NCBI GenBank assembly: GCA_026981635.1
Contig: JALSIF010000279.1
Span: forward strand, 1-10,623
Direction of reading: 5' to 3'
From: JALSIF01 sp026981635 [NCBI: bacterium]
GTDB lineage: Bacteria > 4484-113 > JALSIF01
Length of the DNA: 10,623 nucleotides
The notes below the pieces were generated by a model. The model saw only the letters and a program-made list of their open reading frames with translations. It was not told the origin of the DNA and did not search any database. Numbering within the stretch: position 1 is the first letter of the stretch; each line of letters opens with the position of its first letter. A program made the translations under genes and the position numbers. Below are positions 1,569 to 10,623 of this stretch, in pieces.

Positions 1569-1637
1569 TGGCTGCTGAACTCCGATAACCTCCTCACATC
1601 CTGAGACGGAAGTGCTCGGGAGGAACACTCTCCAAAA

Positions 1638-1645
1638 AGGAGGAG
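1638..1645 (+). promoter_or_regulatory. Shine-Dalgarno site deciding the lipoprotein start
   Basis: AAGGAGGA (1638-1645), core GGAGG at 1639-1643, lies 7 bases before ATG 1651. It rules out the in-frame GTG at 1612 as the start and puts the signal peptide at the very N-terminus. Confidence 0.9.
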
Positions 1646-1650
1646 CAAAG

Positions 1651-3474
1651 ATGACTGGACTAAATATCAGGAACCTGAGTGCACTGGCACTCTCCCTACT
1701 GTTCGTGCTGGTCGCCGCCTGTGGTGGTGGCGGTGGTGGGGGTGGAGCCGGAACCCCCGCACCCGGTCCCACCCCCCAGGCCGGCGGAACGGTCTCCGGC
1801 CAGATCCTGGGTGATCCCGCCGACGCCGACCTGTTCGGTTCCCGGGCCACCGCCCAGGCCGGAATCGGGAATCTGGTCGGTATTCCGGGCATAGAGGTCC
1901 GGGTGGAAAGCGAGGCGGGCGACGACCTCGGCGGGGACATCACCGACGACAGCGGCAACTTCCGCATTGACGATGTGCCCCCGGGCAATGTGCGGGTGAA
2001 GCTGCGCATTCGTACCCAGCTTGACTTCAACGGTGACGGCACCCCCGACGAGGTGGAGATCAAGATCCTGGCCAGCGTAAGCCAGGACCAGATCACCCAG
2101 CTCATTGAGCAGATCGGTCTCATTGACCTGGATGGGGACGGCCAGCCGGACGGCATCCTTCTGCGGGGAACAGTGGTGGACAACGGCCAGCAGCGTGAAC
2201 ACACCATGGGCTTTGATCCTTCCACCAACCAGACCTTTTCTGACACTAACGGAAATGGGGTGGTAGATGTAGATGACGCAAGCTTTGAGGACAATGACCT
2301 TGATGGAGTACCCGATGACCTTACCTCTCAATCTGAGGTGGAGGTTAAGGGTACAGTTGATTCCCTTGATGACCAGCAGATTGTAGTGGGGGGGATAAGT
2401 TTTCTACTTTCACCAACCACCCTGTGGCTTGACGACCATGGCATGGCTACCAGCAGAGATTATTTTGCTGCCGGCAGCTGTGTGGAGGTCAAGGGTTATC
2501 GTCAGGATGAGGACCTGCTGGCAGTCAGGGTTAAGGCCGAGGATGACTGCTCTCTGCTCGGAATTGAGGAGGAGGAGGTAGAGCTTGAGGGCACCATTGA
2601 TTCCATTGACGAAACCCAGATCACTGTCCGAGGGGTAACCTTCTCCCTTTCTCCCGATACCATCTGCTTTGACGAGAACCAAGTTGAGATCCCTTGCATC
2701 GATCTGTCCCCAGGGGACTTTGTTGAGGTAAAGGGCGTCTTCTCACCGCAGGGGCTGATAGCGGAAGAGGTTAAGCTTGATGACCTCTCACCCGATGCAC
2801 ATGAGGATGATGTGGACCATGGTCAAGGGATTGAGTTTGAGGGGGTGGTTGACGAAGTCGGGGATGGAACCGTTACGGTTGGTGGGCAGATTTGGGACAC
2901 GACCCAGGCCCAGTGCTACATGGATGATGGAAGCTCCATTGACTGCTCAGAGATCCAGCCTGGGATGCTGGTGGAGATAGAGGGCTATCAAGCTGAGGAT
3001 GGGGCTTTGGTTGCCACTGAGGTTGAGGTGGAGGAAGAACTGGCAGGAGATGAGCACCAAAACGGTGACGGTGATGAGGCCGGTCGGCAAGATGGCGATG
3101 GCGATGATGAAGGCCAGGACGAGGAAGTAGGAGAGGACGAGCATGATAACGATAACCAAGCTGGCGACGGCAACGCCGGGGAAGGCGTTGATGATGGAGC
3201 TGAGGAGAATGACGGTATGGCCGACGATGGGGCAGAGGAGCATGAAGATGGCGTAAGTGGCGAGGGTGATGATGGTCAGGAAGGGGGAGATGAGGGGCTG
3301 AACGAAGACGGGGATCTTGGCGATGACGGAAACGGAGGTAGTCCAGATCAAGGAACTGATCAGGACCAGACCGGTGGTGATGACGGCTCTTCCAACCAGG
3401 AGGAACAAGACCAGGAAGGTGAGCAGGAGCAGAGTGAAGACGAAGGTGAAGAAGAGGGGGAGCAAAACCGCTAG
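1651..3474 (+). CDS. Secreted lipoprotein: Ca-type loops, three DUF5666-like repeats, hyperacidic tail
   Basis: The product is 607 residues. Residues 1-24 are a lipoprotein signal peptide ending in the lipobox V21-A22-A23-C24, so the mature protein is probably lipid-anchored and exported. Eight glycines (25-32) and a Pro/Gly linker follow. Residues about 46-120 resemble a carboxypeptidase-regulatory-like beta domain (G-N-F-R-I-D-D-V-P-P-G). Asp-rich loops D-F-N-G-D-G-T-P-D (125-133), D-L-D-G-D-G-Q-P-D (159-167), D-T-N-G-N-G-V-V-D and D-N-D-L-D-G-V-P-D look like calcium-binding EF-hand or thrombospondin-3 type loops. Three DUF5666-like repeats follow at about 229-297, 309-377 and 394-461. Repeats 2 and 3 share a C-x9-C pair (C339/C349, C422/C432). 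Residues about 465-607 are almost only Asp, Glu, Gly, Gln and Asn. Function is unknown; a cell-surface, cation-binding or adhesive role is inference. It is flanked by a terminator upstream and a hairpin downstream, so it is probably monocistronic. Confidence 0.88.
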   Translation: MTGLNIRNLSALALSLLFVLVAACGGGGGGGGAGTPAPGPTPQAGGTVSGQILGDPADADLFGSRATAQAGIGNLVGIPGIEVRVESEAGDDLGGDITDDSGNFRIDDVPPGNVRVKLRIRTQLDFNGDGTPDEVEIKILASVSQDQITQLIEQIGLIDLDGDGQPDGILLRGTVVDNGQQREHTMGFDPSTNQTFSDTNGNGVVDVDDASFEDNDLDGVPDDLTSQSEVEVKGTVDSLDDQQIVVGGISFLLSPTTLWLDDHGMATSRDYFAAGSCVEVKGYRQDEDLLAVRVKAEDDCSLLGIEEEEVELEGTIDSIDETQITVRGVTFSLSPDTICFDENQVEIPCIDLSPGDFVEVKGVFSPQGLIAEEVKLDDLSPDAHEDDVDHGQGIEFEGVVDEVGDGTVTVGGQIWDTTQAQCYMDDGSSIDCSEIQPGMLVEIEGYQAEDGALVATEVEVEEELAGDEHQNGDGDEAGRQDGDGDDEGQDEEVGEDEHDNDNQAGDGNAGEGVDDGAEENDGMADDGAEEHEDGVSGEGDDGQEGGDEGLNEDGDLGDDGNGGSPDQGTDQDQTGGDDGSSNQEEQDQEGEQEQSEDEGEEEGEQNR

Positions 3475-3515
3475 AGTTACGCTTCACTAGGAGCTAGCTA
3501 GGGCTAAGTTCTCGG

Positions 3516-3556
3516 CCTGAGGGGGTAGACAGAGAAATATAGTCTGCCCCCTCAGG
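3516..3556. terminator. Large hairpin between convergent genes, possible bidirectional terminator
   Basis: CCTGAGGGGG (3516-3525) pairs with CCCCCTCAGG (3547-3556). The stem continues inward as TAGAC (3526-3530) with GTCTG (3542-3546), which includes one G-T pair, so it is 15 pairs long with an 11-base A/T-rich loop. It lies 41 bases after the lipoprotein stop and 5 bases after the stop of the minus-strand operon. Neither side has a clear U-tract. It could therefore end transcription with help, stabilise 3' ends, or block convergent read-through. Confidence 0.6.
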
Positions 3557-3561
3557 TTGAG

Positions 3562-4404
3562 CTACATCATAAATTGCTTAACTCTGTACGCTTCGCGGAG
3601 GCTCTCCTCCACGCTAGCCCGATCTCCTCGGTGCTCCTGAATAATCAAAAAAAAGTGGTTGTTTTTTTTAAGAGCTGAGAGGCAGCGCTCAATCCAAGGG
3701 TTGCTGACTAGAGCTAAGTGGTGGGAGTCGCTTTCTCCCCCATTATCCTGCAGGTGACAGGCCACCGCGCGGGGAGCATAGGCGATAAGCTTCTCCTCTC
3801 GCCTGGGGTCTAGGCGCAGGTGGCCGGTGTCAAGACAGAGAACCGCCTCATCGCCCAGCTCCTCCACCACCTTCTCCACCAGCCTCTCCCGGGGCTGGTT
3901 GCCGGGCAGGTTCTCCATCGCCAGCACCACCCCCGGGAAGCTCTCCCGCACCTTTTCATTTAGCTCCCGCCAGCTCTCCACTCCCACCCGGATCCGCAGG
4001 CTGAGGTCGGATAAATCCGTTTCCCTTACCTCGGTAAGGTGAACCACCTGAACCAGTCTTCCCCCGGGAACCAACCCCTCATCCACCAGCAGGTGGGCAA
4101 ACTGGGCGGCGGTGAGGTGGCTCTGTATGGTCATAGTCCGGGTTTCCCGATCGGGCGAGGTGAGGTCAAAGTGAGCCTCAATGGGCGAGTGGATGGAAGC
4201 TACCGGCACCCGGTGCTCCTTCAGGTAGGCGATGATGTGGGGCCAGCTCTCCCTCTCCATCCAGGGGTTGTGGACGGTGGGGTGGCCAAGGCTTACTGCG
4301 TCATAGCGAAAGCCGGCCGGACCCTCCCACTCCATATACTCGGCCCCCGCTTCCCACCCTGGGGTGAAGTAGCTGAAGTAGGTGGAGAGGGTGATCAGCC
4401 TCAC
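3562..4404 (-). CDS. Sugar phosphate isomerase/epimerase-like TIM-barrel protein (AP endonuclease 2 fold)
   Basis: The product is 280 residues, starting at a GTG (4402-4404), which is the usual length for the xylose-isomerase-like TIM-barrel superfamily. The metal-site pattern of that family is visible: M-E164-N-L-P-G, C-L-D192-T-G-H195, V-A-C-H217-L-Q-D-N-G-G-E-S-D226-S-H228-H229, and near the end I-I-Q-E257-H. Members isomerise or epimerise sugars or cyclitols, or act as AP endonuclease IV. The spacing here looks like the isomerase group, and the substrate cannot be read. The start is one base after the bshC stop, so the two are almost certainly translationally coupled, which suggests a link to bshC or simple operon packing. 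An A8 run and a T8 run (minus-strand codons 246-253) are unlike the rest of this GC-rich gene and make the 3' end sensitive to slippage. Confidence 0.85.
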   Translation of the reverse strand: MRLITLSTYFSYFTPGWEAGAEYMEWEGPAGFRYDAVSLGHPTVHNPWMERESWPHIIAYLKEHRVPVASIHSPIEAHFDLTSPDRETRTMTIQSHLTAAQFAHLLVDEGLVPGGRLVQVVHLTEVRETDLSDLSLRIRVGVESWRELNEKVRESFPGVVLAMENLPGNQPRERLVEKVVEELGDEAVLCLDTGHLRLDPRREEKLIAYAPRAVACHLQDNGGESDSHHLALVSNPWIERCLSALKKNNHFFLIIQEHRGDRASVEESLREAYRVKQFMM

Positions 4405-4405
4405 C

Positions 4406-6085
4406 TTAGGATGCCTCGCTGAGGCTGACCGGCTGGGTGTGGGGAACCACCGTCAGGCAGACCGTCCCGTAGCGGCCCGCCATGGATTCCCTGAGTCGCT
4501 CCAGGGTTGTCTCAAACCCAAACCGGCCCAGCAGCCAGAGCCAGCTCACTCTACGCTCCATAAAATCTCCCTCCGGGCGGACCCAGCCCATTATGCGCTC
4601 CACCCACTCTCGCTTGGGCCCCATTCTCCTCAGGGCCTCGCGATGGATCTTCTTGGCTATTTTTTCCAGCACGCCCCTCGCCTTGGCCAAGCGTGCCTCG
4701 GCCGACCGGGCCAGGGAGGGGTCCCACTCCATCAGCTCGTCCCTCAGCCGCTCATATCCCCTCTCCAGCGCCCCTTCCAGCTCCCTGAGGGCGGCCATCA
4801 CCCCTTCCGGCACCACCTGCCTGGCCTCTTCGCCCAACCAGTCCTCCGCCCCGTCGCAGGGAAGGCGCAGAGGGATGTCAAGTTCCCTCCAGCGGCGGGC
4901 CATCTCATCGCTGATCAACAGCGCCATGGGCCGGGGGAGCACCACCGGCATGCGGAGACCGAACTCCCCGAAAATAACCTCTGCCTGTGCCCAGTAGGCC
5001 ACCTCTGCCGGCCCCGCCACCAGCATGGCCAGGGGGATGGCCCTGCACTGGTAGACCGGTTTCAGCAGTGCGCTGGGTGAAAAGCGCTCCCCCTCCTCCT
5101 CAATCATCTGGATAAGCTCCACCGGTTCAAAGCGCCGTCCCGAATATTTGAGCACGAAGCTCCCGTCGCTTTCCCTGAGGAGCTTCTCCCGTCCCACCTC
5201 GCTGTGCAGGAAAACCAGCGTCTCCCCGGGCAGCACCGCAACCTGCTCATGGAAGCCGAGCCGTTTGAGCAGGCGGCTGCGGGCTAGGAGCTTCTCCTCC
5301 AGATCGGCGTGGTGGTGGATCACATGGAGGATGGTCTCTCGGTTTAGACGGGAGAAGAGTGGGGTGGAGGCGGGAACTACCACCAGCCCCTGCTCTCCCA
5401 GCACCCTGAGCATGAGCCGGGCAAAGGCCCCGCTGAAGGTAAAGCCCGGCTGATAGCACTCTGCTAGCAGTTCATAGACCCGCCTAGCGTCAACCCCCCC
5501 ATCGCGCAGGCTGGACACCAATCGGTCGGCTATCCCCCGCACCTCCCCGTTGAGCTCTATCTCCCGTACCGGCCTCAGCCCCGCCCCCTGGACGGTGGTG
5601 TGCTGGAGCCGGTCAAGGCCCCCCTCGTGGGGGATCTCCACTGCCCGCACCTCCTCAAAGTCGTGGTCCCAGTCGGGCATCCAGAAGATGGGAATAGTGG
5701 GCCGGCCGGTGATCTTCTCCACCCTTTCCGCCCAGTCCAGCACCGCCAGCGCCTTGCTCAGCACCATGAGCGGTCCTCCGAAAAGGGTGGTCTGCTGGCC
5801 GGCCGCCACCACCAGGGAACCTGGCTCGGCTAGGCGCCGCAGGTTTTCCAGGGAGGCGGGTGGGGCTCCTGCCCAGATGAGAAACTTCTCCATTGACTCA
5901 CTTAGCCGCTTGCGGGGGTGCCCCTGGCGGTCAATCTCCTCTGCTCGGGCTAGCAGGGAGGAGGCCAGCCGATCGCCCAGCTGGTGGTGGAAGAACTGGC
6001 TGGCCGAGGGCTCGCCGGCTTGGTAGTTGCTGAGCAGCTTGCTGGAAAGACCGAAGCAGTCGGGGTCTATGGTCTCGGGCAGCAT
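4406..6085 (-). CDS. bshC: Bacillithiol biosynthesis cysteine-adding enzyme BshC
   Basis: The product is 559 residues from ATG 6085, close to the roughly 540 typical of BshC. BshC is the putative ligase that adds cysteine to glucosaminyl-malate, the last step of bacillithiol synthesis in the cytoplasm. Family landmarks are A-G-Q-Q-T-T-L-F-G-G-P-L (about 95-106), I-F-W-M-P-D-W-D-H-D-F-E-E-V (about 133-146) and A-G-P-A-E-V-A-Y-W-A-Q in the middle third. The Lys/Arg/Glu-rich C-terminal region fits the family's coiled-coil segment. Start choice: an in-frame GTG at 6100 would overlap ubiX by 13 bases and lacks a ribosome site. ATG 6085 lies 2 bases after the ubiX stop, with AGGTGG upstream inside the ubiX 3' end. 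bshA and bshB are not in the window. The TIM-barrel gene follows after one base. Confidence 0.9.
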   Translation of the reverse strand: MLPETIDPDCFGLSSKLLSNYQAGEPSASQFFHHQLGDRLASSLLARAEEIDRQGHPRKRLSESMEKFLIWAGAPPASLENLRRLAEPGSLVVAAGQQTTLFGGPLMVLSKALAVLDWAERVEKITGRPTIPIFWMPDWDHDFEEVRAVEIPHEGGLDRLQHTTVQGAGLRPVREIELNGEVRGIADRLVSSLRDGGVDARRVYELLAECYQPGFTFSGAFARLMLRVLGEQGLVVVPASTPLFSRLNRETILHVIHHHADLEEKLLARSRLLKRLGFHEQVAVLPGETLVFLHSEVGREKLLRESDGSFVLKYSGRRFEPVELIQMIEEEGERFSPSALLKPVYQCRAIPLAMLVAGPAEVAYWAQAEVIFGEFGLRMPVVLPRPMALLISDEMARRWRELDIPLRLPCDGAEDWLGEEARQVVPEGVMAALRELEGALERGYERLRDELMEWDPSLARSAEARLAKARGVLEKIAKKIHREALRRMGPKREWVERIMGWVRPEGDFMERRVSWLWLLGRFGFETTLERLRESMAGRYGTVCLTVVPHTQPVSLSEAS

Positions 6086-6087
6086 CT

Positions 6088-6708
6088 TTAGTAGCCCCAC
6101 CTGCGGTAAAGCTGGTGCTCAATGGCCATCAGATCAAGCACTTTGCCAACGATGAAGTCTACCATCGCCCGGCTGCTCTCCTCCGGTTGGTGATAGAAGG
6201 TGAGCACTGGCGGCAGGATCACACCCCCTGCACGGGCCACCCTGACCATGTTTTCAAGGTGGATGAGAGAGAGTGGGGCCTCGCGGGGAACCAGCACCAG
6301 CAGCCCCCTCTCTTTTAGCACTACATCGGCCGCCCGCTCCAGCAGGTTGTCGCTCATCCCGTTGGCGATGGCGGCAAGGGTGCCCATGGAGCAGGGAGCA
6401 ACCACCATCTTCCGCACCCCGAAGCTTCCGCTGGAAATGGGCGCCCCCAGGTCGTCCTCCCGGTGGTGCTGCCAGGCGACGGCCCTGATCTCGCTGATGC
6501 CCAACCGCTCCCGGAGCCGGCTGAGGTCATCCAGTTCCAGCCCAAACTCGTTTCGGGCCACCTGCCGGGCTCCCTCCGTAAAGACGGTGTGCAGTTCCAC
6601 TCCCGGTGTGGAGAGGAGCACCTCAAGCAGCCTCAGGCCCACCGGCAGGGCGGATGAGCCGCTCAGACCCAGGACAATGCGTTCGGTCTCCCTGGCGGGC
6701 TGGGCCAT
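6088..6708 (-). CDS. ubiX: Flavin prenyltransferase UbiX
   Basis: The product is 206 residues, typical UbiX length. UbiX attaches a dimethylallyl group to FMN to make the prenylated flavin used by UbiD-type decarboxylases, for example in quinone synthesis or aromatic acid metabolism. Signature segments are G-L-S-G-S-S-A-L (14-21, FMN loop), S-G-S-F (93-96), V-A-P-C-S-M-G-T-L-A (103-112), D-N-L-L-E-R-A-A-D-V (120-129), V-P-R-E-A-P-L (140-146) and I-H-L-E-N-M (149-154). The start is ATG 6708. GAGGAG overlaps the stop of the upstream TPR gene and serves as ribosome site, 17 bases after that stop. No UbiD partner is visible in the window, so it probably serves an enzyme encoded elsewhere. Confidence 0.93.
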   Translation of the reverse strand: MAQPARETERIVLGLSGSSALPVGLRLLEVLLSTPGVELHTVFTEGARQVARNEFGLELDDLSRLRERLGISEIRAVAWQHHREDDLGAPISSGSFGVRKMVVAPCSMGTLAAIANGMSDNLLERAADVVLKERGLLVLVPREAPLSLIHLENMVRVARAGGVILPPVLTFYHQPEESSRAMVDFIVGKVLDLMAIEHQLYRRWGY

Positions 6709-6725
6709 GCGGTAGGGCTAGCTCC

Positions 6726-9700
6726 TCATGCCCCTACCAGCTCCTTCACCTTGGGGTTGTGGAGTAGGGGCCTGAATATATCCTCCCGGAGGACCTCCTC
6801 CCGGTGGCTGGGGTTGAGCTCCAGGGCTCTCCTCAGCGCCTCGGCCACCCCCTCGGCGTCCCTCTGCCAGGCGCAGACATAGGCCAGGTGTAGCCAGAGC
6901 AGGTCGTTTTGGGGGAACTTCTCTATCGCCTCCTCAAAGGTCTCCCGCGCCTTCTTGAACTCCTTCATGTGCAGGTAGGCCAGTCCCTTGTTGTCCCAGG
7001 CGGCAACTGAGTTGGGGTCAAGCTCAATCACCTTGTTGAACATGTCAATCGCCTTGGCAAACTGCTCCAGCGCAGCCAGGTTGACTCCCCTGTTGAAGTA
7101 GGACTTGCTGTGGCTTTCGTCAAGCTTGATGGCTCGCTCGTAGCACTCGTTGGCCTTGAGCATCTCCCCCAGCGCGTCGTAGGCCAGCCCCTTCTGGAAC
7201 CAGAGCTCGGCATTCTCAAAGCGCCGGTCAAGGGCGGTATCCAGCACCTCAATCGCCTTGATGTAGAGCTGGCGGGCCTCCTCCTCTCGCCCGGCCCGTT
7301 CCTCCGGCGAGCCGGCCTTGCGCGCATCGGCTTCCTTCTCCTGGGCGAGCTTGTTGAGGGCGATTCCCATGTCCACCCAGATAAAGGTCTTCATCGGCTT
7401 GAGGTCAAGGGCCTTGCGGTATGCCTCAATCTCCTCCTGGTAGCGGCCCAGCTTGCCCAGCGCGCGTCCGTAGTCATACCAGGCCCGGTCGTCCTCAGAG
7501 TTCAGGTTTAGGTAGCGCTCCAGGTATTCGACCTGCTCCTGGAAGCGGCCCATCTTGCCAAGCAGGACTGACTTGCGGTACCAGACCAAGTCGCTGTCCT
7601 CGTTGAGGGCGAGGGATCGGTCGTAGGATTCCAGCGCCTCTTCCAGCCGTTCCAGACACTCAAGGGAGTAGGCCCGGTTGTACCACACCCGATAGTCGTC
7701 GTCCTTGATCTCCAGGAAGCGGTCAAAGAACTTCAGTGCCTGCTCAAACTCCTTGAGTTCATGCTCCGTCAGACCTAGGTTGTTGAGGCAGTCAAGGTCG
7801 TCGGGATGTTCCTCCAGGTAGGTCTCAAAGGCCACCTTGGCCTGCTCATGGCGGTCCTCATTGAGTAGGGCCACCCCCAGGTTGTAGATGGCCTCAAAGT
7901 CGTTGGTGTCAAGCTCCAGGGCACGCTGAAACATGTTCAGGGCTCTGTAGTCCTGTCCCAGCCTGCCCAGCAGACGGCCGGTGTTGAAGTAGGCCCCCTG
8001 CAGCTCCCTTGCCCGGGCCGACGACTCCTCAAAGGCTTTCATCGCCCGCAGGAACTCTCCCGCTTCGGTCAGGGCGATGCCCAGGTTGTACCAGGCCTTG
8101 ACGAAGCCCGACTGGGCGCCTACCGCCCGCTCGTAGCTCTGGATTTCCTCCCCCAGCTGGTCAAGGTCGCTTGCGGCCAGCCCCCGGTTGAACCACAGAT
8201 CGGCCCTTCCCGGCACGATCTCCAGCGCACGGTCATAGTCGCTCTTCTCCTCGGTGTGGCGGGAAAGCTTCTCGTGGCAGATGGCCCTCAGCCACCAGTA
8301 GCCCGCCCGTCGCTGGTCCACCCGCTGCCGGTCCTGCTTGATCTGCTGGCGCTTGGACTCCTCTTCATTTAGGCGGATGGCGTGGTCAAGCTCGCTTATT
8401 GCCTCCTCAAACTTGCCCAGCCGGTAGAGGCCGTAGGCCAGGCCGAGGCTTGAGTATTCGTTCTTGCCGAAGCGCTCCTCCACCACCCGGAAGCGGTCCA
8501 CCGCAGTAGAAAAGTCCTCGTCCAGCAGCAGGATGTAGCAGTGGATCAGTCCCTTGCGGTGCATCTCCCGCTGCTCGCGCTGCTTCTCCTCCTTCTTCAT
8601 GAAGATGCGCGACATCCCCGCCCGTTCAGGGACGAAGATCTCGTTGAAGTCCTCAATGAAGAAGCCCCGGTCCATTAGGTCGCTGGGACCGATATCGCGC
8701 AGGCTGGGGTAGACCCTTCCCTCACGGGGCTTCATCCCCCGGTAGGGCATCACGTTGAAGTAGTGGAAGGAGACCGAAAGCTCTTCCTCAATCTGGGGCA
8801 GGCCCAACCGGCGAGCCAGCTTCTCCATGAAGATGTCGGCGTCGCTGATCTGGAAGATGCGGAAATACTTGCCGTGGAAGTCGCCGGTGCTGATGAGCCT
8901 AACGGCGATGTCAGAAATATCCTTCAGGTCCCCGTAGTGGGCCCAAAGCAGGCCCTCGGAGAAGAACTCGTCGCTGTCCTCGGCGGCGTGCCTCAGCATG
9001 TAGAAGGCGGGCCACTCCTTGCCCGAATAGCCCACCACCACCAGTCCGTGGTGCTTGATCCGGTTGTCAAAAAGCTCAATGAAGTTGTCGTGGAGCTTGA
9101 CCGCCCCCTGGCGGAAGTAGCGCGGTTCATACTGGTCAAAGAAGCCGTAGAGGTGGACGATGTAGTTGTGGTCCTCGTCGTCCCTGATCAGCTTGACATC
9201 GTCGGGGTTTCTGATGGAGATGGCCGAGGTGCGGCGGATAAGGTAGAAAGACTTCTCCAGCAGGTCGTCAAAGTTGGTGGTCCAGATGAGAGGATTGATC
9301 TTTCTGTGCTTGATGGCGATGGTGAGATAGAAGTCGGCTGGCGAAGGGTCCTTGCCGTCCAGCAACTTCTCAAAGAACTCCTTTCTCAGGGTGCGGGAGG
9401 GGTACTCCTTCTCCAGGGCGGAGGCATAGGCATAGTCGGGGTTGAACCACTTCTGTCGGTGGAGCCACTCCTGCAGGTCGGCGGCGGTAACCTTCCCCCG
9501 CTTGTCCGGGTTGGTCTTTTCAAAAACCTTGACGGTGATCTCGTCAATCATCTCCTGGGCGAGGGGGACTCCGCTGGAAACGCTGAATCCCGCCCCCACC
9601 CAGAACTGCATCTTGGGCCCGCGCTGGGCGATGTATTCAATGGCTTCGTCTTCACTGATGACGAGCTCCTCAAGGACCTCCTTGCGCTCCTTGGGTTCTT

Positions 9701-9776
9701 CCCCCTCTTCGCGCCTGCGGTCCTTGCGGATGAGCTTTTCTAGTACCGACCCGGGGTCGGGTGGAGAGACCGTCAC
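6726..9776 (-). CDS. SIR2-like (SIR2_2) NAD-binding domain fused to about 15 TPRs
   Basis: The product is 1016 residues from GTG 9776, with the strong ribosome site GGAGGTGAT. Residues 1-40 are a charged extension. Residues about 50-325 are a SIR2_2-like Rossmann domain: the NAD loop G61-A-G-F-S-V-S-S-G-V-P71, W-T-T-N168-F-D-D, V-H208-L-Y210-G211 and V-V-V-G-Y-S-G (246-252). Residues about 405-991 are about 15 TPRs of 34 residues, most opening with a W/Y-x-x-x-G-type helix. Repeat 11 (797-855) carries an extra Glu/Arg-rich stretch of some 22 residues near 810-835. Proteins of this type, such as DSR1/DSR2 and ThsA, cleave NAD during phage infection, with the helical part sensing a phage product. 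Here the His normally just before the Gly of the HG motif appears to be Tyr210, so activity is uncertain. It is the first gene of an operon with ubiX, bshC and a TIM-barrel gene. The role (defence sensor, regulator or metabolic NAD-binding protein) is inference. Confidence 0.87.
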   Translation of the reverse strand: MTVSPPDPGSVLEKLIRKDRRREEGEEPKERKEVLEELVISEDEAIEYIAQRGPKMQFWVGAGFSVSSGVPLAQEMIDEITVKVFEKTNPDKRGKVTAADLQEWLHRQKWFNPDYAYASALEKEYPSRTLRKEFFEKLLDGKDPSPADFYLTIAIKHRKINPLIWTTNFDDLLEKSFYLIRRTSAISIRNPDDVKLIRDDEDHNYIVHLYGFFDQYEPRYFRQGAVKLHDNFIELFDNRIKHHGLVVVGYSGKEWPAFYMLRHAAEDSDEFFSEGLLWAHYGDLKDISDIAVRLISTGDFHGKYFRIFQISDADIFMEKLARRLGLPQIEEELSVSFHYFNVMPYRGMKPREGRVYPSLRDIGPSDLMDRGFFIEDFNEIFVPERAGMSRIFMKKEEKQREQREMHRKGLIHCYILLLDEDFSTAVDRFRVVEERFGKNEYSSLGLAYGLYRLGKFEEAISELDHAIRLNEEESKRQQIKQDRQRVDQRRAGYWWLRAICHEKLSRHTEEKSDYDRALEIVPGRADLWFNRGLAASDLDQLGEEIQSYERAVGAQSGFVKAWYNLGIALTEAGEFLRAMKAFEESSARARELQGAYFNTGRLLGRLGQDYRALNMFQRALELDTNDFEAIYNLGVALLNEDRHEQAKVAFETYLEEHPDDLDCLNNLGLTEHELKEFEQALKFFDRFLEIKDDDYRVWYNRAYSLECLERLEEALESYDRSLALNEDSDLVWYRKSVLLGKMGRFQEQVEYLERYLNLNSEDDRAWYDYGRALGKLGRYQEEIEAYRKALDLKPMKTFIWVDMGIALNKLAQEKEADARKAGSPEERAGREEEARQLYIKAIEVLDTALDRRFENAELWFQKGLAYDALGEMLKANECYERAIKLDESHSKSYFNRGVNLAALEQFAKAIDMFNKVIELDPNSVAAWDNKGLAYLHMKEFKKARETFEEAIEKFPQNDLLWLHLAYVCAWQRDAEGVAEALRRALELNPSHREEVLREDIFRPLLHNPKVKELVGA

Positions 9777-9780
9777 CCTA

Positions 9781-9790
9781 AATCACCTCC
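9781..9790 (-). promoter_or_regulatory. Strong Shine-Dalgarno site of the SIR2-TPR gene
   Basis: On the minus strand the bases read GGAGGTGATT, an almost complete complement to the 16S rRNA 3' end. The GGAGG core is 9 bases from GTG 9776. It fixes the start of the 1016-residue protein and implies efficient translation. Confidence 0.92.
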
Positions 9791-9791
9791 G

Positions 9792-9808
9792 CTTACACCC
9801 TTTGTAAG
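9792..9808. promoter_or_regulatory. Inverted repeat at the transcription start of the minus-strand operon, possible operator
   Basis: CTTACA (9792-9797) and TGTAAG (9803-9808) are perfect reverse complements separated by CCCTT. The dyad sits between the -10 box (9816-9821) and the ribosome site (9781-9790), at about +1 to +17 of the predicted transcript. It could bind a repressor dimer or form a small 5' hairpin. At this length chance cannot be excluded. Confidence 0.4.
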
Positions 9809-9815
9809 TCCAAGA

Positions 9816-9823
9816 ATTATAAC
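9816..9823 (-). promoter_or_regulatory. Extended -10 promoter of the SIR2-TPR/ubiX/bshC operon
   Basis: The minus strand reads TGTTATAAT at 9824-9816, a perfect TATAAT (9821-9816) with the TGn extension. No recognisable -35 box lies 16-18 bases upstream, which is usual for extended -10 promoters. Transcription would begin near 9809, giving a leader of about 33 bases. Confidence 0.65.
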
Positions 9824-9877
9824 AGTGGTGCCTAGCCGTCCCGGGCGGGAGGGCACAGGCACCCACCGTCGCTGGGG

Positions 9878-9883
9878 TATAGA
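9878..9883 (+). promoter_or_regulatory. Possible -10 box for the NifU/BFD-like gene
   Basis: TATAGA (9878-9883), preceded by GGGG, lies 11 bases before GTG 9895. Transcription would begin within about 6 bases of the start codon, which would explain the lack of a Shine-Dalgarno site. No convincing -35 box is seen. Confidence 0.3.
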
Positions 9884-9894
9884 CTAGTTGTCCG

Positions 9895-10527
9895 GTGAGG
9901 CTTGAGATCTCCAGCTTTGAATACACCGACCTCATGCGGGAGCACTTTCGCCGCCCCCGCAATGTGGTCTACTCCGATGTGGAGGAGTGGAACCGGCGGG
10001 CCAGCGGGCGGGGTTCCATCGGCTCCATGCTGATGGGCGACAGCCTGCGCATCTGGATCGTGGTGGAAAAGGATGCGGCGGGCGAGGAGCGCATCACCAA
10101 GTTGGTCTGGAAGAGCTATGGCAACCCCACCGTCGTCGCCGCCACCTCCCTCATGTCAGAGCTGGTTACAAGGGGAGGGGGGATGACCCTGGAGGAGGCC
10201 CTCGCCCTCACCGCCGAAGACCTCTGCGACCAGCTGGGGATCAACCGCTCCGCCGCCGGTGCCATCGTCTCCCACCTCGCCCTGCGGGACGCCATCCACG
10301 ACTACTTCCGCCGCACCGGCCAAAACCACCGCATCCGTGAGCGTCTGCCCCAGATCGTCTGTGACTGTTTGGGAGTGACCGACGAGGAGATTGAGGAGGA
10401 GGTGAAGAACGGAGCGATGGACTTTGATCTCCTCCAGCAGGCCACCGGCGTGGGGACCGGCTGCGGGGCATGCCATGAGCTGGTCTGCCAGCTGATAGAG
10501 GAGTATCTGGAGAAATACTTCTACTAG
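9895..10527 (+). CDS. Degenerate NifU/IscU-like domain fused to BFD-type [2Fe-2S] domain
   Basis: The product is 210 residues from GTG 9895; an in-frame stop at 9880-9882 excludes earlier starts. Residues about 8-137 follow the IscU/NifU N-terminal pattern: F-E-Y-T-D-L-M-R-E-H-F-R-R-P-R-N-V, a G-D (48-49) and S-Y-G (74-76). The three cluster cysteines are replaced: A-C-G-D by L-M47-G-D, Y-G-C by Y-G-N77, and H-C-S by V-S126-H. Residues about 154-205 are a BFD-like [2Fe-2S] domain with C156-x-C158 and, 31 residues on, C190-x2-C193. This is the first two modules of NifU without the C-terminal Nfu module. It therefore probably holds a permanent [2Fe-2S] cluster and binds partners of the Fe-S machinery rather than building clusters. 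It is transcribed divergently from the SIR2-TPR operon, 118 bases apart. No good ribosome site is visible, so translation may be leaderless. Confidence 0.85.
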   Translation: MRLEISSFEYTDLMREHFRRPRNVVYSDVEEWNRRASGRGSIGSMLMGDSLRIWIVVEKDAAGEERITKLVWKSYGNPTVVAATSLMSELVTRGGGMTLEEALALTAEDLCDQLGINRSAAGAIVSHLALRDAIHDYFRRTGQNHRIRERLPQIVCDCLGVTDEEIEEEVKNGAMDFDLLQQATGVGTGCGACHELVCQLIEEYLEKYFY

Positions 10528-10591
10528 GCCCCGGCTCCCAATAAGCGGCCATAATCCCACCCGCCGGGGTAGAAAATGGTGTGGCCCTTCT

Positions 10592-10623
10592 GCCGGAGTA
10601 GCTCAACTGGCAGAGCAGCTGAC
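10592..10623 (+). tRNA. tRNA 5' part, probably tRNA-Thr, cut by the window end
   Basis: GCCGGAG (10592-10598) fits the 5' acceptor strand. TA (positions 8-9) follows, then D-stem GCTC (10601-10604) pairing with GAGC (10613-10616) around the 8-base loop AACTGGCA. A26 and the 5' anticodon strand GCTGA (10618-10622) follow, and C at 10623 opens the anticodon loop. The sequence up to here matches common bacterial tRNA-Thr(UGU), where this stem carries the anticodon TGT. The anticodon itself is outside the window, so the amino acid is inferred. Confidence 0.87.

Follow-up and report, generated by a model that had tools for sequence, protein, structure and literature searches.

A SIR2-TPR protein carried by all ten sampled genomes of one bacterial phylum: immune-type kinship and a possible core role

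Does a bacterial protein with an immune-type SIR2 domain have to be regarded as an anti-phage protein, or might such a domain have become part of the basic machinery of the cell? This question is raised by the leading gene of a four-gene run in the stretch of DNA analysed here (10,623 nucleotides, hereafter the window), which makes up one entire contig of an assembly of 1.75 Mb, estimated to be 85% complete. Tested bacterial SIR2_2 proteins (ThsA, DSR2, SPARSA and PaAvs5) are described as serving immunity (PMC12700824, PMC12931631, PMC10781750). The features discussed below are as follows:

6726..9776, minus strand: gene of the SIR2_2-TPR protein, 1016 aa, GTG start (open reading frame, Pfam, structure model)
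8781..9668, minus strand: SIR2 domain, residues about 37-332 (Pfam, PADLOC and fold match; the SIR2 of SPARSA was the nearest solved fold found)
9267..9281, minus strand: TTNFD motif, residues 166-170, with catalytic Asn168, invariant in 10/10 orthologues
9144..9149, minus strand: Tyr210-Gly211 (TAC GGC), in the place of the catalytic His-Gly (alignment of orthologues)
6816..8459, minus strand: TPR solenoid, residues about 440-987, ~15 helix pairs (Pfam, model, fold comparison)
6088..6708, minus strand: ubiX (flavin prenyltransferase family), 17 bases downstream of the SIR2-TPR gene, adjoining it in 4/10 genomes
4406..6100, minus strand: bshC (bacillithiol cysteine-adding enzyme family), with a possible start at 6085, next to ubiX in two genomes
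3562..4404, minus strand: TIM-barrel protein (AP_endonuc_2), fourth and final gene of the run, separated from bshC by 1 base

The GTG start of the SIR2-TPR gene is preceded by GGAGGTGA, a stretch resembling a ribosome site. The gap of 17 bases to ubiX reported by the first-pass annotation was correct; its gap of 2 bases between ubiX and bshC holds if bshC begins at the in-frame ATG at 6085 (Met6), while the frame as listed, with GTG at 6100, overlaps ubiX by 13 bases. Scanning of positions 3400-10623 gave no signal for promoters (none found, 1.0 expected) or terminators (4 found, 5.0 expected). Elsewhere in the window, NifU is apparently split over two genes on the plus strand (609-1229 and 9895-10527), one with NifU_N and Fer2_BFD and the other in which a long linker precedes a C-terminal NifU domain. 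The product of the plus-strand gene at 1612-3474 contains three stretches of DUF5666 and has a long tail that is acidic and of low complexity. For the TIM-barrel protein, the cobamide remodelling enzyme CbiR gave a match that fell below the cut-off (39 versus 105 bits).

The domain architecture first read from the open reading frame was confirmed. Pfam placed SIR2_2 (PF13289) at residues 163-284 with a score of 36.4 bits (cut-off 24.5), and the motifs GAGFSVSSGVP (61-71), TTNFDD (166-171) and VVGYSG (247-252) were all present in the 1016-residue frame. Many TPR families were found among the Pfam matches listed for the protein (25 of 29 families). An AlphaFold2 model built from the 10 orthologues (mean pLDDT 82.2) runs from the SIR2 domain through a linker into about 15 TPR helix pairs, as counted by hand on the secondary-structure line, in agreement with the roughly 15 repeats proposed before. 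The TPR part of the model matched consensus TPR proteins, TPR superhelices and OGT, and in a Foldseek search with the full-length model TPR proteins filled the best 50 rows.

The relationship of the SIR2 domain was examined by profile and by fold. Residues 37-332 of the model aligned with the SIR2 of SPARSA (8jkz) over 269 residues with Z 24.3 and rmsd 5.8 (VIA-align). A fold search with a SIR2-only model of the orthologue in genome G003, of modest quality (mean pLDDT 68.5), returned SPARSA, DSR2, ThsA, KomC, Avs5 and Sir2-HerA, with canonical sirtuins lower. The PADLOC families Aga_SIR2-PNTD and pAgo, which judging by their labels we take to be short-Argonaute SIR2 models, matched the orthologues in all 10 phylum genomes. 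By these profiles and models, the SIR2 domain appears nearest to that of SPARSA, a short-Argonaute system, followed by DSR2, ThsA and KomC. Thus, the kinship with anti-phage NADases suggested in the first-pass annotation is supported by profiles and fold, but its nearest relative seems to be the short-Argonaute SIR2 and not that of DSR or Thoeris.

We then asked how widely the protein is distributed. A full-length orthologue, 37-40% identical to the window protein, was identified once per genome in 10 of 10 genomes of the uncultured phylum (eight genera, four families), all of them metagenome-assembled genomes of 77-96% completeness, with sizes of 1.5-4.0 Mb for the relatives of the window's genome. 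The phylum is 4484-113, probably Candidatus Niteriota, under which name 12 genomes of 1.54-4.11 Mb have been described (PMC11382960). SIR2_2 exceeded the cut-off in every one of the 10, compared with 2 of 14 control genomes. Outside the phylum, 10 of 375 genomes gave matches at E values up to 0.001, all of them weak and confined to SIR2; the best scored 66.5 bits, against 627-746 bits inside, and judging from the translations they include SIR2-APAZ-like proteins and shorter proteins with SIR2 and repeats. In a SIR2-only tree of 20 proteins, those of the phylum formed one clade (support 1.000), with the deeper order unresolved. A plasmid search with the 359-residue SIR2 part yielded nine records, all below 30% identity, so that no close mobile carrier was met among plasmids, and viral contigs gave two loci with 26-29% identity over 95 residues. 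An exact-pattern scan of genome contigs, which can miss distant relatives, found eight loci, answering to 8 of the 10 phylum genomes. In the open-licence literature, we recognised no paper describing the SIR2-TPR family of this phylum. The phylum also contains another SIR2 protein, distinct from this one and seemingly with repeats, in an open frame of 757 aa (G001:C34, L050).

Inheritance of the gene was assessed by comparing FastTree trees of SIR2-TPR and rpoB. All six non-trivial splits were common to both trees for the nine genomes compared, G007 being left out for want of an rpoB match. Some SIR2-TPR branches were two to three times as long as those of rpoB, including that of the window's own genome, G000 (2.1), and the stem of family f3 (3.1). 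Selective constraint was estimated from two close pairs only, with dS near 1, which makes all dN/dS values rough. In the closest pair, G003-G006, the ratio was 0.060 for the whole gene, 0.058 for SIR2 and 0.060 for the remaining (TPR) part, compared with 0.054 for rpoB, 0.145 for ubiX and 0.135 for bshC. The pair G007-G008, for which the rpoB comparator is missing, gave 0.056, 0.047 and 0.061, respectively, and 0.16 for the neighbouring rsmD-like gene. The TPR part thus evolves slightly faster than SIR2 in both pairs. From 453 reciprocal G003-G006 gene pairs, 187 non-overlapping pairs were sampled, 186 of which had finite values. Within this sample, where SIR2-TPR had 0.063 and the median was 0.122, 18 of 186 pairs showed lower dN/dS, as did 12 of the 105 pairs of at least 300 codons; it should be noted that the frames were called mechanically, that some may be shadow frames and that the rpoB region was deliberately made part of the sample. 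By other measures the gene was less extreme (32/186 pairs with lower dN and 36/186 with higher identity).

The gene neighbourhood was much less stable. UbiX had matches in four of the ten genomes, the window and three genomes of family f4, and each of these four adjoins the SIR2-TPR gene, which it follows with gaps of 17, 2, 2 and -4 bases; no match was found in the other six. BshC was matched in eight genomes but lies next to ubiX only in the window and in G006, and in five of the eight it is on another contig. In G003 it lies ~3.5 kb from ubiX, with a DNA methylase-Mrr protein between them. This protein, which joins a DNA methylase and an Mrr-type nuclease domain in one chain (L020, 6160-8004), does not occur at this place in the congener G006. 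In family f2, three of four genomes have an rsmD-like gene in divergent orientation ahead of the SIR2-TPR gene, and both f3 genomes carry a PTPS-like gene downstream on the opposite strand; Pfam supported one of each of these neighbours, and the others were assigned by likeness and layout. Across families the neighbours change and the gene remains; what is conserved is thus the SIR2-TPR gene, not the operon. Accordingly, the ubiX-bshC neighbourhood proved not to be a general property of the orthologues, with ubiX adjoining in 4/10 and bshC next in two. Among the PADLOC matches listed (25 of 38 families, E 1e-8) for 60 neighbour ORFs picked by hand were the G003 methylase, four 'mad2' and one MzaA; one 'mad2' match, when checked, had Pfam methyltransferase domains, and the MzaA match was not assigned to a locus. 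The first-pass view that the gene lies outside an obvious defence island agrees with its presence in all ten genomes and the splits shared with rpoB, with the G003 methylase-Mrr gene nearby and the MzaA match unplaced. In contrast, the suggestion that a defence gene had landed ahead of housekeeping genes finds little support, given a gene present throughout the sampled phylum, with rpoB-like tree and constraint and with ubiX adjoining in 4/10.

The active site was well conserved, with one exception. GAGxS, TTNxD and GYxGxE were invariant in all ten phylum proteins, as were Asn168, Asp170 and Glu254. The catalytic His of K-x-H-G was kept in the nine other orthologues and replaced by Tyr210 in the window protein, a change that the first-pass annotation does not mention. 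Hence the catalytic Asn and His pair of SIR2_2 NADases is complete in 9/9 orthologues and incomplete here. Ten further aligned SIR2 proteins all keep the His, one of them as His-Arg. Beside Tyr210, Lys208 has become His and Asp/Ser212 has become Phe; with several changes so close to each other, a single read error at Tyr210 is unlikely, although the window's family (f1) is represented in the sample by this one genome. The NADase activity of SPARSA is lost with H186A and N142A (PMC10781750), and in PaAvs5 an Asn in place of the His works, whereas Ala or Gln there do not (PMC12931631, section 11). Since the His mutant of SPARSA is dead and the Asn variant of PaAvs5 is active, Tyr210 probably lowers or alters catalysis, although this is not certain. 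CxxC pairs, expected for the zinc module of canonical sirtuins, were absent from the SIR2 region in 10 of 10 phylum proteins.

What, then, is the most plausible role of the protein? We consider it somewhat better than an even bet that an immune-type SIR2 domain, fused to TPRs and vertically inherited, has been fixed in this phylum as core machinery linked to NAD, either an enzyme or a scaffold. The protein probably belongs to the cell's basic equipment and not among acquired anti-phage genes. Judging from the conserved Asn, His and binding motifs, the SIR2_2 domain would bind NAD+, and most members may hydrolyse it or transfer its ADP-ribose. The TPR solenoid might hold or sense a putative conserved cellular partner and thereby control the SIR2 domain. 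Universal presence, tree agreement and constraint suggest that the role would be a constant cell function and not acquired phage defence. In the window lineage, the change of His to Tyr with its flanking substitutions could have left mainly an NAD-binding scaffold, or an altered chemistry. The main competitor is a resident anti-phage protein, kept by descent and not by exchange, in which the TPRs would sense a phage product and the SIR2 domain would drain NAD+ in abortive infection. The immune kinship of the SIR2 domain speaks for defence, its nearest relatives by profile (PADLOC, 10/10) and by fold being immune NADases, and so do the Asn and His found together in nine of ten proteins and the DNA methylase-Mrr gene between ubiX and bshC in G003. 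Strong constraint is also compatible with a defence role. However, an arms-race sensor is disfavoured by presence in all ten genomes, vertical descent in agreement with the rpoB tree and an rpoB-like dN/dS in SIR2 and TPR parts alike. The PADLOC matches listed for the 60 neighbour ORFs included the G003 methylase, four 'mad2' and one MzaA, and the window protein has lost the catalytic His. On balance, we regard resident defence as possible but rather unlikely.

Two other explanations were given much less weight. The tie to redox and flavin metabolism raised in the first-pass annotation would have the protein serve flavin, quinone or thiol metabolism together with UbiX and BshC. The tight ubiX linkage seen in two families (four genomes, with gaps of 17, 2, 2 and -4 bases) and the fact that every UbiX match of the phylum adjoins the SIR2-TPR gene favour such a tie, but we judge it improbable and the link weak, as the protein persists in the six genomes that have no UbiX match and bshC lies on another contig in five of the eight genomes with a match. 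A canonical sirtuin-type protein deacylase whose substrates are chosen by the TPRs appears more improbable still. Its CxxC pair is missing from the SIR2 region throughout the ten proteins, and the zinc module, which SIR2_2 proteins lack, is described as required for deacetylation (PMC12700824); the sirtuin Asn and His positions are nevertheless kept in nine of ten, and canonical sirtuins did appear, lower down, in the G003 fold search.

Returning to the core NAD-linked protein that we favour, a bolder form of the claim is that this immune-type sirtuin is an indispensable component across the phylum, a TPR-scaffolded machine consuming or sensing NAD+ that lacks its catalytic His in one lineage. 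We advance this form tentatively, being rather more inclined to doubt than to accept it. The occurrence of a SIR2_2-TPR protein across a phylum, at rpoB-like constraint, would demonstrate that an immune fold can become core machinery. It also cautions that a domain alone is insufficient for naming a defence gene. The orthologues of the phylum include forms that have the catalytic His and one that lacks it, providing a natural series for comparison.

Comparison with known systems places the protein near, but apart from, each of them. The Sir2-APAZ protein of SPARSA (GsSir2; 8jkz, 8in8, 8y80) has the same SIR2 by family profile (E 2.3e-21) and by fold (Z 24.3), and the same catalytic Asn, and its K-x-H-G His is also found in 9/10 phylum proteins; SPARSA has APAZ where the phylum protein has a TPR solenoid. 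Piwi, the short pAgo partner of SPARSA, was found in none of the 10 phylum genomes, which are incomplete, and in one of 14 controls (M. jannaschii). DSR1 and DSR2 are characterised by a DSR-type profile and by the sensing of phage tail tubes. DSR2 resembles SIR2-TPR in its length of about 1000 aa, N-terminal SIR2_2 and long C-terminal part, and DSR2 structures match by fold. SIR2-TPR differs in its typical TPRs and phylum-wide presence, the C-terminal make-up of DSR2 lying outside this comparison; no DSR-named family occurred among ten PADLOC matches (E 0.1), in a library whose DSR models are unconfirmed. ThsA of Thoeris shares SIR2_2, with a weak profile match and a fold match. No SLOG or macro domain of Thoeris was among the Pfam matches listed for SIR2-TPR (25 of 29 families), and no TIR partner among those listed for the eight scanned proteins of the window.

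PaAvs5 (AVAST type 5) combines SIR2_2 with C-terminal repeats and likewise departs from His-Gly, with Asn-Gly (PMC12931631) where the window protein has Tyr. It carries a STAND ATPase, which was not among the Pfam matches listed here (25 of 29 families); at that position the SIR2-TPR model goes directly from SIR2 through the linker to the TPRs. FAM118A/B offer a further parallel, as a vertebrate-wide SIR2_2 clade that processes NAD and is devoid of the zinc module (PMC12700824). They differ in being vertebrate and in keeping the active-site His in both proteins, and a TPR solenoid is not mentioned in the passages of PMC12700824 drawn on here. SIR2_2 proteins with repeats were already known, both as Avs5 and with TPR named in a tree legend (PMC12700824); the unusual point here is that such a protein may be a core gene of a phylum.
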